58,232 nucleotides of DNA from positions 1 through 58,232 of the IMG/VR virus record IMGVR_UViG_3300032086_003837, one strand, 5' to 3'. Source of the DNA: a virus. The notes beneath the pieces are model-generated. The model saw only the letters and a list, made by a program, of their open reading frames with translations. It was not told the DNA's origin and made no database searches. Positions 54,512 through 58,158 of the stretch are shown one piece after another. Made by a program: the position numbers and the translations under genes. The first letter of the stretch is position 1. Each line of letters opens with the position of its first letter.

Positions 54512-54709
54512 TTAAAAATTTGCCTCCACTTGTTTTATATGCTTACATTTACGAAACGCTGGACAGTCACAAGTGAATCCACTGTCCAGCATCTCAATGT
54601 CATATACATCTTTTCCGTTGGATGATCTTACGTTCCAAACAGTACCCACCGCCCAGTGCTTACGTGTTTTTATTGTTTCAGACTTCCATACTTTAGAACC
54701 CTTAGACAT
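54512..54709 (-). CDS. Small SWIM-like zinc-finger protein
   Basis: A 65-residue protein from ATG 54709 (MSKGSKVWKSETIKTRKHWA), which overlaps the upstream stop by 8 bases. The longer in-frame upstream start would run through that gene. The C-terminus has CDCPAFRKCKHIKQVEANF, a compact CxC-x5-CxH like a SWIM finger, which binds DNA or proteins. Residues 20-42 form a beta hairpin (VGTVWNVRSSNGKDVYDIEM). It is probably a regulatory or replication accessory. Confidence 0.65.
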   Translation of the reverse strand: MSKGSKVWKSETIKTRKHWAVGTVWNVRSSNGKDVYDIEMLDSGFTCDCPAFRKCKHIKQVEANF

Positions 54710-54959
54710 TTTTCCATACTCTCTCATAGATGTATTGAATACCATGCAGATCAGGATGTTTTCTGATCCACATACCAGTATCCGGTTCAAAATGTTCTCT
54801 GAAGAACTTATCTAGTTTTTTGTGGCCGGTTGATACTGAGGTATCAATCGACTTTGATAAGGTGTCAAACTCATCATCAGACATGATAGGATCGTCTTTA
54901 AACTCATAAGCATAAGCTGCTACCGAAAGACGAATCCTATTACGTATTTCTTTATTCAT
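54702..54959 (-). CDS. Small phage protein resembling a DNA-ligase-Ia-type helical segment
   Basis: An 85-residue protein from ATG 54959, with GGAGAAGA ahead. The segment VAAYAYEFKDDPIMSDDEFD resembles the YYxxDDPxISDxEYD motif of NAD-dependent ligase Ia domains, but no ligase active site exists. The rest is STGHKKLDKFFREHFEPDTG and IRKHPDLHGIQYIY. It is a widespread phage small protein. Function unknown; the similarity may be no more than shape. Confidence 0.6.
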   Translation of the reverse strand: MNKEIRNRIRLSVAAYAYEFKDDPIMSDDEFDTLSKSIDTSVSTGHKKLDKFFREHFEPDTGMWIRKHPDLHGIQYIYERVWKNV

Positions 54960-54999
54960 CATTCTTCTCCTTATCGTCATCGATTTGATATTTCATTTT

Positions 55000-55377: not shown

Positions 55378-55475
55378 TATTCATTCTCCAATATTTCGAA
55401 CCCTTCATATCCAGCATCAAGTGCCCACTCAACAGCCTCATGGGTGCTGTCAAACGGTCCAGCATGACATATCAT
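55377..55475 (-). CDS. 32-residue conserved-style mini-protein
   Basis: The frame codes MICHAGPFDSTHEAVEWALD then AGYEGFEILENE. It is fully coupled: ATG overlaps the methyltransferase stop (ATGA at 55472-55475) and its TAA overlaps the next ATG (TAATG at 55375-55379). The DSTHEAVEWALDAGYEGFEI face looks like a short two-element fold. It was missed because of its length. Confidence 0.62.
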   Translation of the reverse strand: MICHAGPFDSTHEAVEWALDAGYEGFEILENE

Positions 55476-55963
55476 TCTTCCTCGTAAAATGACGTATATG
55501 TCGGGCCGGAATAATTTCGTTTCCAGTATATAGCACTGATACCGTTACCCATTGGAAACCCTAATTTAGATCCAGTGCCATAATGGCGCATTTCTTTAAT
55601 TCCACCATATCTATTAGTTTCTTTCACCAAACCGTAGGCATTAAAAGCCTTCCAGGTGGGGATCAGGTATACTATATTATCACTGATTTTAAAAGAATGT
55701 AAAACGAATAATCGGATTAATGAATATGGCGGGTTACTAATAATCCAGTCTACGTTGTTCTCATAATCAAAAAAATCTTTACCTTCGTTAATTTCACACC
55801 AATCAGCAGTAGGGAGAAGATCGGTAAAAACCCCACCGCCCCTACATGGTTCTAAAATCTTGCCAGAGGGATTGAAATAATTGATCATATCCTTTGCGCA
55901 CCACTCTGGGGTATAAATTTCATTATTACCGGATTTTCGAAGAGCTGGGTTCATTTTCGACAT
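55472..55963 (-). CDS. Small DNA adenine-N6 methyltransferase-like protein
   Basis: A 163-residue class-I SAM-dependent methyltransferase. Motif I is EPCRGGGVFTD (residues 38-48), an acidic SAM-contact segment follows (CEINEGKDFFDY), and the catalytic NPPY is at 77-80 (IISNPPYSL). These mark amino-methyltransferases of adenine. The protein is shorter than typical phage Dam and has no target-recognition domain evident, so it may be a minimal form or act with partners. No restriction partner is beside it, so it is solitary and could protect phage DNA or regulate. AGGAG lies before ATG 55963. Confidence 0.82.
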   Translation of the reverse strand: MSKMNPALRKSGNNEIYTPEWCAKDMINYFNPSGKILEPCRGGGVFTDLLPTADWCEINEGKDFFDYENNVDWIISNPPYSLIRLFVLHSFKISDNIVYLIPTWKAFNAYGLVKETNRYGGIKEMRHYGTGSKLGFPMGNGISAIYWKRNYSGPTYTSFYEEE

Positions 55964-56533: not shown

Positions 56534-56662
56534 TTAGACATCAAAATAACCTAAAAATATCAGAGGACCGAGAACTAGCAGTATAATTATAATGTGTGTG
56601 TAAATTTCACGCCGTACTCTGGCCCTCACCTCACGTTTTAGATTTTCATAGTCCCGCATCAT
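56534..56662 (-). CDS. Small single-span membrane protein (42 aa)
   Basis: The frame codes MMRDYENLKREVRARVRREI then YTHIIIILLVLGPLIFLGYF and DV. A basic N-terminal helix and a C-terminal transmembrane segment suggest an N-in tail-anchored peptide. It has AGGAGAAG before two adjacent ATGs and overlaps the stop of the repeat protein upstream by about 16 bases. It was too short for routine ORF calling. Confidence 0.6.
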   Translation of the reverse strand: MMRDYENLKREVRARVRREIYTHIIIILLVLGPLIFLGYFDV

Positions 56663-56984
56663 TCTTCTCCTGTTTCACCTTAGAGTTCCGGCCCGATCTT
56701 GCCAAAGACGGTGCCCCTAACACTCGAGCATGGACAGTACCGCTGACATAACCGCAGACATCACCCCAGACATTACCTTCGATATCACCGCCGACATTAC
56801 CTTCGATATTATCCCAGACACTACCGCCGATCTTGCCAAAGACACTACCGCCGATCTTGCCAAAGACATCACCGCCGACATTACCTCTGACATTTGAAAT
56901 ATATGGAAGCCCCTCTTCGTCCTTACCTAATTCGATGACTTCCTGTAAAAATATCAACTGTTCTTTTGTAAACTTACTCATCAT
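56646..56984 (-). CDS. Tetrapeptide-repeat protein (GxVx / GxIx)
   Basis: A 112-residue protein. A helical front (FTKEQLIFLQEVIELGKDEE) precedes about 13 tandem four-residue units of form G-x-[VI]-x at residues ~33-85 (for example GNVGGDVFGKIGGSVFGKIG), then a basic tail (RSGRNSKVKQEK). The DNA is a near-perfect 24-base tandem array. Such short G-V repeats may form a narrow beta solenoid. Similar repeat proteins occur in phages and bacteria, without a known role. A single Cys (WGDVCGYV) lies near the end of the array. Confidence 0.6.
   Translation of the reverse strand: MMSKFTKEQLIFLQEVIELGKDEEGLPYISNVRGNVGGDVFGKIGGSVFGKIGGSVWDNIEGNVGGDIEGNVWGDVCGYVSGTVHARVLGAPSLARSGRNSKVKQEKNDAGL
56735..56890 (-). 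repeat. Tandem coding repeats of about 24 bases (8 aa)
   Basis: The plus strand shows repeated words such as CCGCCGATCTTGCCAAAGAC and CCGACATTACCTTCGATATC. Two units of 24 bases (GKIGGSVF twice) are exact. This array could expand or contract by slippage and so change repeat number between isolates. Confidence 0.75.
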
Positions 56985-57483: not shown

Positions 57484-57684
57484 TCATAAAAACCTAGTCT
57501 CCACTACTTCTTTTTCTTTTGTCAAGGTAACAACTCTAGCTTTGCTATGCCTTCCCCTGACATGAACTTGAAACCATTCCCTGGCTTCTTTTTCAGTCTC
57601 GCAGACAACAGCACACCACTCAGGCAATTCACTCTCGACTGCTTGGCACATAGTGCTGAATTGTGTTGTAACTGTCCAAGTCAT
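57484..57684 (-). CDS. Small protein behind the structured leader (66 aa)
   Basis: A 66-residue protein from ATG 57684 (MTWTVTTQFSTMCQAVESEL), with AAAGGAG eight bases ahead. It contains LPEWCAVVCETEKEAREWFQ and VRGRHSKARVVTLTKEKEVV. The longer in-frame ORF upstream would run through the candidate RNA leader and is rejected. No family recognised. A mix of Cys, Trp and charged helices suggests a small soluble regulator. tRNA-Trp follows, so both are on one transcript. Confidence 0.58.
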   Translation of the reverse strand: MTWTVTTQFSTMCQAVESELPEWCAVVCETEKEAREWFQVHVRGRHSKARVVTLTKEKEVVETRFL

Positions 57685-57691
57685 TTCTAAA

Positions 57692-57875
57692 CTCCTTTCC
57701 TCATACGCCCAGCTAGTATCTCCAATCTCCCCGCACGGTCTTATTGACGTTGCCGCTCTAGTTTGATTGAAACTAACATCTCTGGGTTTCACGTCACCGA
57801 TATTTCACGGGCGAATATATTCACCAGAGATCGTGTTTTCAGGTGGCCTGCCCTCCGCACGGACGTATGAGGAAA
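57692..57875 (-). ncRNA. Candidate structured RNA leader / riboswitch-like element
   Basis: This is the one stretch of about 200 bases without a convincing gene. A perfect 12-bp inverted repeat (57696-57707 with 57864-57875) encloses it, and the helix's inner strand abuts the GGAG (57692-57695) of the 66-residue gene. Inside are: two copies of the self-complementary CCGTGCGG (57855-57862 and 57731-57738) able to pair with each other; an 8-bp helix ATCTCTGG/CCAGAGAT (57824-57831 with 57778-57785); and a 6-bp hairpin TAGTTT-loop-AAACTA (57759-57775). All can form at once without crossing. Such a fold could gate ribosome access. It matches no RNA class I know. Confidence 0.45.
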
Positions 57876-57890
57876 AGAGTCATAAGACTC
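57873..57890 (-). terminator. Possible intrinsic terminator after the 89-residue gene
   Basis: On the minus strand GAGTC-TTAT-GACTC is followed by TTTT, right at the stop of the 89-residue gene. Its T run overlaps the 5-prime strand of the leader helix, so termination and leader folding may compete. The 5-bp stem is short. Confidence 0.45.
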
Positions 57891-58158
57891 AATCCCATTC
57901 GTTATCATACCTTGTTGTTTCAAACAACGTTTCACCATAGTATTCTTTGGCGTATTTAGACCCATCAGTCCAATGGTTTGGATTTTCACCTTCTTTAACG
58001 TTAAGGTATTCCAACGGATCCTTACGATTTTTACGAGCCTCCAACATTACTTTTCTAGCTTTCCTAGACCCAAGCTTGATTTTTTCCATTTTCTTACGAC
58101 GCTCAGCTATCCGTTTGATTAGAGCTATACGTTCATCGTACGTAGTTGCAACAGTCAT
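57889..58158 (-). CDS. Small basic protein, unknown (89 aa)
   Basis: It starts ATG 58158 (MTVATTYDERIALIKRIAER), with GGAGTGG ahead. The N-terminal 50 residues are very basic (RRKKMEKIKLGSRKARKVML, EARKNRKD), and the end is acidic (YAKEYYGETLFETTRYDNEW). Basic helical proteins of this type in phages often bind DNA or RNA. A farther ATG (58167) is possible. It couples to the truncated ORF upstream (TAAGAATG). Confidence 0.58.
   Translation of the reverse strand: MTVATTYDERIALIKRIAERRKKMEKIKLGSRKARKVMLEARKNRKDPLEYLNVKEGENPNHWTDGSKYAKEYYGETLFETTRYDNEWD

Follow-up and report, generated by a model that had tools for sequence, protein, structure and literature searches.

Several structured RNAs are known from phages. 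GOLLD and ROOL, which are often located near tRNA genes, measure about 600-900 nt, adopt elaborate folds and assemble into homo-oligomers through kissing loops (PMC12286853). The manA, wcaG and PhotoRC-II motifs are structured RNAs of marine T4-like phages, all with Rfam accessions (PMC2864571). In the 5' leader of the MS2 maturation gene, a transient structure permits translation before a cloverleaf closes (van Meerten 2001, as related in PMC6733600). Here we describe an RNA element which shares some traits with each of these.

The window, by which we mean the whole stretch of 58,232 bases analysed here, encodes gp32 and gp6-like and gp5-like baseplate proteins, and its virus is therefore assigned to the T4-like myoviruses. 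By gp6 the nearest isolates are phage C48C1 and Methylophilales phages (32-37% identity), both filed under Kyanoviridae; from these relatives and from the IMG sample numbers the virus is probably marine. The features of the locus are collected in Table 1. A tRNA-Trp adjoins the side of the 66-aa gene, for which Pfam and PHROG searches returned no match, and the stop codon of the upstream small gene overlaps the competing hairpin. Elsewhere on the minus strand of the window we noticed a small ORF with GGDVFGKIGGSV-like repeats (56646-56984), possibly a repeat protein of the beta-helix type; a small ORF (RNRIRLSVAAYAYEFKDDPIMSDDEFD; 54702-54980), a relative of which stands directly behind the element in L242; and an ORF with an NPPYS motif (55472-55963), which resembles a DNA methyltransferase fragment or a small methylase.

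Table 1. Positions of the RNA element, its helices and its neighbours in the window
Feature	Position	Strand	Details
Whole structured RNA element, 194 nt	57689..57882	minus	Covariance model R1; 91 distinct elements in relatives
P1, 5' strand	57861..57882	minus	Outer 19 nt 57882-57864 and TCC 57863-57861; massive compensatory change
P1, 3' strand	57689..57710	minus	Holds the Shine-Dalgarno sequence (SD) AAAGGAG, 57698-57692, of the 66-aa gene
P2 arm	57833..57860	minus	GTG 57860-57858 / CAC 57835-57833, A-rich internal loop, AGG/CCT hairpin
P2 apical loop	57845..57848	minus	Self-complementary GGCC; candidate intermolecular kissing loop, from relatives' loops
P3 arm and extra domain	57778..57831	minus	ATCTCTGG 57831-57824 / CCAGAGAT 57785-57778; optional in relatives
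P4 arm	57712..57777	minus	GTTAGT 57777-57772 / ACTAGC 57717-57712; CAATC 57769-57765 / GATTG 57727-57723
P5 hairpin	57735..57756	minus	GCGG 57756-57753 / CCGT 57738-57735
Upstream competing hairpin	57877..57890	minus	GAGTC 57890-57886, TTAT loop, GACTC 57881-57877, then TTTT; captures the outer P1 5' strand
66-aa gene downstream of the element	57484..57684	minus	ATG at 57684, 7 nt past GGAG
Upstream small gene, ~90 codons, candidate start	57889..58158	minus	Stop TGA 57891-57889

The initial annotation, made from the sequence of the window, had started from a perfect 12-bp inverted repeat about 180 bases apart. The repeat is indeed present (57864-57875 / 57696-57707), with 156 nt separating its arms and an overall span of about 180 nt. 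On the minus strand, the 3' arm abuts the GGAG at 57695-57692 that belongs to the 66-residue gene; as described, the region is flanked by that gene, next to tRNA-Trp, and by a small GAGTC-TTAT-GACTC-TTTT hairpin. The closing helix of 12 bp which was built on it exists but was understated, as it gains three inner pairs (57861-57863 / 57708-57710) and the pairing reaches outward to 57881/57690 through the SD. Two self-complementary CCGTGCGG copies had also been counted as helices; the family alignment instead pairs them elsewhere, the 5' copy giving GTG to P2, where it pairs with CAC at 57833-57835, and the 3' copy giving CCG to P5. The 5' copy varies in relatives (CCGTGTGG, CTGTGTAG, CCATGTAG, CCTTGCTG). 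By itself the repeat is not beyond chance, since about 1.15 inverted repeats of 12 bp at such spacing are expected per window of the same composition. The single-sequence fold of the region is 4.7 standard deviations better than dinucleotide shuffles, none of 200 shuffles equalling it, and we regard the structure in the window as real because its relatives covary. A coding explanation was rejected: a GTG frame (57484-57792) crosses part of the element, but the lengths of relatives differ by non-multiples of three. The conserved open frame which the initial annotation had named as a counter-indication is not found, the elements ranging from about 80 to 225 nt.

When the product of the 66-aa gene was used as a protein query, 14 IMG/VR loci were recovered, of which 10 show the element wholly or partly in the alignment, and pattern searches with two core stretches and the P2 arm added many more; the collections covered were IMG/VR, one genome per GTDB species and isolate phages. 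After removal of two false matches the family comprises 91 distinct elements, all on IMG/VR contigs, among which 68 different P1 arm pairs occur. Because members were fetched with fixed patterns, part of the core seems more conserved than it really is, and the kinship of the sequences in this pattern-based sample inflates the cell counts given below. Model R1 scored the window copy, which is among its own sequences, at 146 bits. Exactly one model-scored copy is held by 17 of the 20 virus records searched whole, and a second, divergent copy lies directly beside the first in a few loci (L030, L034 and L107). The tandem second copies of L030 (419-531) and L034 (5900-5995), a few bases from the first, have the same P1/P2 plan and different inner arms. 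No relative was found among isolate phages by DNA similarity, and a model scan of eight isolate T4-like genomes, T4 included, found no copy; 89 pattern matches in bacterial genomes were discarded as chance, the model giving two weak hits only. With Rfam 15 at the gathering threshold, the window and 11 sources with relatives yielded tRNA only, plus a tmRNA elsewhere in L099, and relaxed searches yielded nothing on the element beyond chance-level matches. The earlier statement that the region fits no known riboswitch class is thus upheld for Rfam classes in the window and relatives scanned, and by sequence comparison the element belongs to a previously uncatalogued phage RNA family.

The consensus fold is a four-way junction of P1 (~21 bp), the P2 arm, an optional P3 arm and the P4/P5 arm. 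On 42 sequences this fold pairs 97.9% of 1813 cells, with two-sided changes at 21 pairs; when slid by 1-3 columns it pairs 34-44%, and none of 500 shuffles reached the observed values. RNAalifold independently recovered the nested fold and added the three inner P1 pairs. The initial annotation had let its structure depend on compensatory changes in relatives, and when looked for these proved abundant. In P1, an arm pairs with its own partner at 18.3 of the 19 positions and with one swapped in from another copy at 13.0, each of the 53 distinct 5' arms being matched by its own 3' arm. The GTGY/RCAC pairing of P2 varies compensatorily (for example GAAC/GTTC in L065), and in P4, for which RNAalifold picks the nested pairing, AGTC/GACT and GATA/TATT covary. 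A local P4 hairpin (TTAGTTT/AAACTAG) was rejected as it fits worse than the nested form, shows no two-sided change and leaves 8 mismatched sequences at one pair, and because truncated relatives retain GTTAGT/ACTAGC. The invariance of P5 in alignment A1 arises partly from the search pattern which fixed it; L247, obtained with another pattern, carries a compensatory P5 change (GCAGC/GCTG). G-U cells number 337 against 12 A-C cells, which argues that the transcribed RNA is the selected entity and fixes its strand.

P1 and P2 are constant across the family, and P3 and P4 are swapped or missing. P3 is missing or substituted in L020, L065 and L236, and P4 is lost or replaced with P1 and P2 retained in L236, L237, L238, L239, L242 and L243, so that L236 has neither arm and L238 a bare P4 stem; truncated GTTAGT-TTAT-ACTAGC hairpins are seen in L238 and L251. 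L242 and L099 have common flanks and a different P4, and whole versions are exchanged at one locus in L124/L235 and in L016/L026.

The apical tetranucleotide of P2 is of the GGCC, GATC, GTAC, CCGG or GCGC type. A Watson-Crick palindrome is found in 22 of 24 distinct P2 loops, compared with a shuffled mean of 11.1 (0 of 5000 shuffles as high), and the two exceptional loops, GGCU and UCGG, self-pair using G-U; one of the search patterns had fixed CCGG, the remaining ones leaving the loop free. The first, divergent tandem copy of L107 falls outside this rule. Because the tetranucleotide changes while remaining self-complementary, pairing between two molecules is its best account, and the loop sequences suggest a loop-loop homodimer. 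We would go further only tentatively: it is possible, though we doubt it, that the RNA recognises its own kind, the P2 palindrome setting dimer specificity and arms and whole versions being swapped among co-circulating phages. Were this so, it would be a modular assembly system built of RNA alone, perhaps deployed by phages against one another or against the host.

The GGAG SD lies inside the 3' strand of outer P1 in 38 of the 91 copies, that of the window included, and is followed by an ATG within 12 nt in 35 of these (counts taken from 93 elements, two non-SD false matches being dropped later). In the remaining 53, P1 contains no SD, and what follows the element is a tRNA, a terminator, a promoter or a gene that brings its own SD. 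It could be argued from the 38 copies with their nearby start codons, and from several downstream genes being small accessory ones, that the element is a cis-regulatory leader or riboswitch which responds to a ligand or protein and, by governing access to the SD in P1, regulates the gene behind it. We consider this unlikely, as the other 53 copies, many of them ahead of tRNAs, terminators or promoters, are at odds with a riboswitch, which always precedes the gene it regulates and has an expression platform, the downstream genes are of more than 12 unrelated types, and the distal arms are dispensable and swappable, unlike a ligand-binding core. Of the alternatives in the initial annotation, a regulatory leader would hold for those 38 copies at most, and a stand-alone ncRNA suits the family better. 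Its suggestion of a sensor for a ligand or host state is not borne out by this diversity of downstream genes, nor by the most constant part of the element being P1 with the P2 arm and its self-complementary loop. At the level of sequence, comparison among relatives shows the predicted helices and the strand they belong to, and also that the element is modular and tied to no particular downstream gene.

In the SD-type copies the 5' strand of P1 tracks the SD by compensation, so that P1 is maintained over it. The upstream hairpin is present in 29 of the 38 SD-type copies (17% in shuffles) versus 10 of 54 others, the latter denominator still containing both false matches; nine SD-type copies are without it. 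It covaries (GAGTC/GACTC, GAGTTA/TAACTC, GAGCC/GGCTC) and is found in several unrelated upstream contexts, but it may be no more than a weak terminator serving the upstream gene. In equilibrium folds of prefixes of the window RNA, this hairpin forms in nascent prefixes and is displaced when the 3' strand is complete, and in the equilibrium fold of the full window RNA the probability of the SD being unpaired is ~0.001, with ~7 kcal/mol needed to open it.

We propose that the element represents a family of phage-encoded structured RNAs in which the RNA itself would be the functional product. Long P1 and the P2 arm with its self-complementary loop would form the constant part and P3/P4 exchangeable arms; the P2 loops of two molecules, as their sequences predict, may pair into a homodimer, and P1 would allow the RNA to fold as one unit and to come free of the polycistronic transcript of the phage. 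In the window copy P1 would additionally have taken the 66-aa gene's ribosome-binding site into its own pairing. During synthesis the upstream hairpin would keep the outer 5' strand of P1, so that the SD stays accessible; on completion of the 3' strand P1 would zip and hide the SD, the nascent RNA being on and the folded RNA off. As the equilibrium prefix folds would have it, translation of the small gene may thereby be limited to newly made RNA, a folding timer. As a whole, that is, RNA as product, dimer and SD timer at the window, this is our best explanation, and we hold it with moderate confidence.

Several neighbours of the element deserve mention. Ten loci (L107, at ~260-460, L028, L030, L057, L068, L099, L131, L242, L243 and L254) carry another conserved structured RNA, with GGGGAGGGGCACTGCAGAAAGTCCCTCCC at its end and a CTGGTACCGnnAAACCCAG core upstream of that, which either immediately precedes the element or follows tRNAs; Rfam gave no match to it in the loci scanned. 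The tmRNA on the element-bearing contig L099 (6549-6949, minus strand; Rfam E 2.8e-27, ARAGORN tag ANNNFAPSGYALAA) is permuted and of alphaproteobacterial type, which hints at an alphaproteobacterial host. In the subfamily of L262, L264, L265 and L266, P2 is GGAGA/TCTCC and the element has the end of a gene on one side and a strong terminator on the other, after which comes a T4-late-promoter-like TATAAATA.

That P1 stays long whatever its sequence, and that the element is located between genes and tRNAs and ahead of terminators, would also agree with a processing or punctuation element, in which P1 serves as a double-stranded, RNase III-like cleavage site separating upstream and downstream transcripts. 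We rate this somewhat less likely than a leader; it leaves the P2 arm with its palindromic loop, the covariation of P4/P5 and the swapping of arms unaccounted for.

The movement of the element raises a further alternative. There are 56 pairs of elements whose interiors agree to at least 95%; in 25 of these neither flank is related, and hence the unit changes its location, be it by recombination or by another route. Such near-identical elements in unrelated surroundings, together with borders that are sharp at the P1 ends and one extra tandem copy missing from related loci, could point to a small MITE-like mobile DNA element whose terminal inverted repeats merely resemble an RNA helix. Among the matches listed, clean empty sites were seen for extra tandem copies and none for single copies. 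We find this alternative more improbable again, because the terminal repeats are not conserved but change compensatorily, the G-U excess is one-stranded, the internal helices covary and there is usually a single copy per genome; a DNA cruciform or plain transposon ends are ruled out by the strand-specific G-U pairs and the covarying repeats. Mobility of the element is compatible with an RNA function. A retron-type RNA, in which a1/a2 repeats close msr-msd and the msd arm varies, has a similar layout of long end repeats, constant first arm and highly variable second arm, but is extremely improbable, as the reverse transcriptase PF00078 was found in 0 of 14 phage records (49-275 kb, 13 of them shown whole to carry the element), control genomes being positive.

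Taking the element as a functional RNA, a compact and unusually strongly covarying family is added to the small set of tRNA-adjacent phage RNAs of unknown function. Since it is far smaller than GOLLD and ROOL, its dimerisation, structure and knock-outs are directly testable, and in the SD-type copies nature provides a means of asking whether delayed RNA folding times translation in a DNA phage.

Among known systems, the packaging RNA of phi29 likewise combines a sequence-tolerant long end helix with four-base intermolecular loop-loop contacts; its contacts, however, join two loops that differ from and complement each other, and its carriers are small podoviruses, whereas our element has one self-complementary loop and belongs to T4-like phages. 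With manA, wcaG and PhotoRC-II it shares being a structured RNA of marine T4-like phages, but Rfam scans of the element matched none of them. The MS2 leader, as summarised in the source cited above, resembles it in having the SD within the closing helix of a cloverleaf-like fold, which holds for the window copy and 37 others; it is, however, the leader of one gene of an RNA phage, while the fold of the element occurs in many copies without any SD. For the SD-type copies we propose a delayed folding like that of MS2. Rfam scans with the GOLLD and ROOL models gave no match in the window and the relatives tested; phage origin and tRNA neighbourhood are common to both, and oligomerisation of the element would follow from its loop palindromes, but at ~80-225 nt it is a junction under one long helix. 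The T4 rnaC and rnaD (species 1 and 2 RNA) are likewise small stable RNAs (119-139 nt) annotated beside the T4 tRNAs; homology to them was rejected, as model R1 gives no T4 match and the folds differ. Being unlike GOLLD/ROOL and rnaC/rnaD in both sequence and fold, the element constitutes a new family of structured phage RNA, to which modular arms and SD capture are the proper features.
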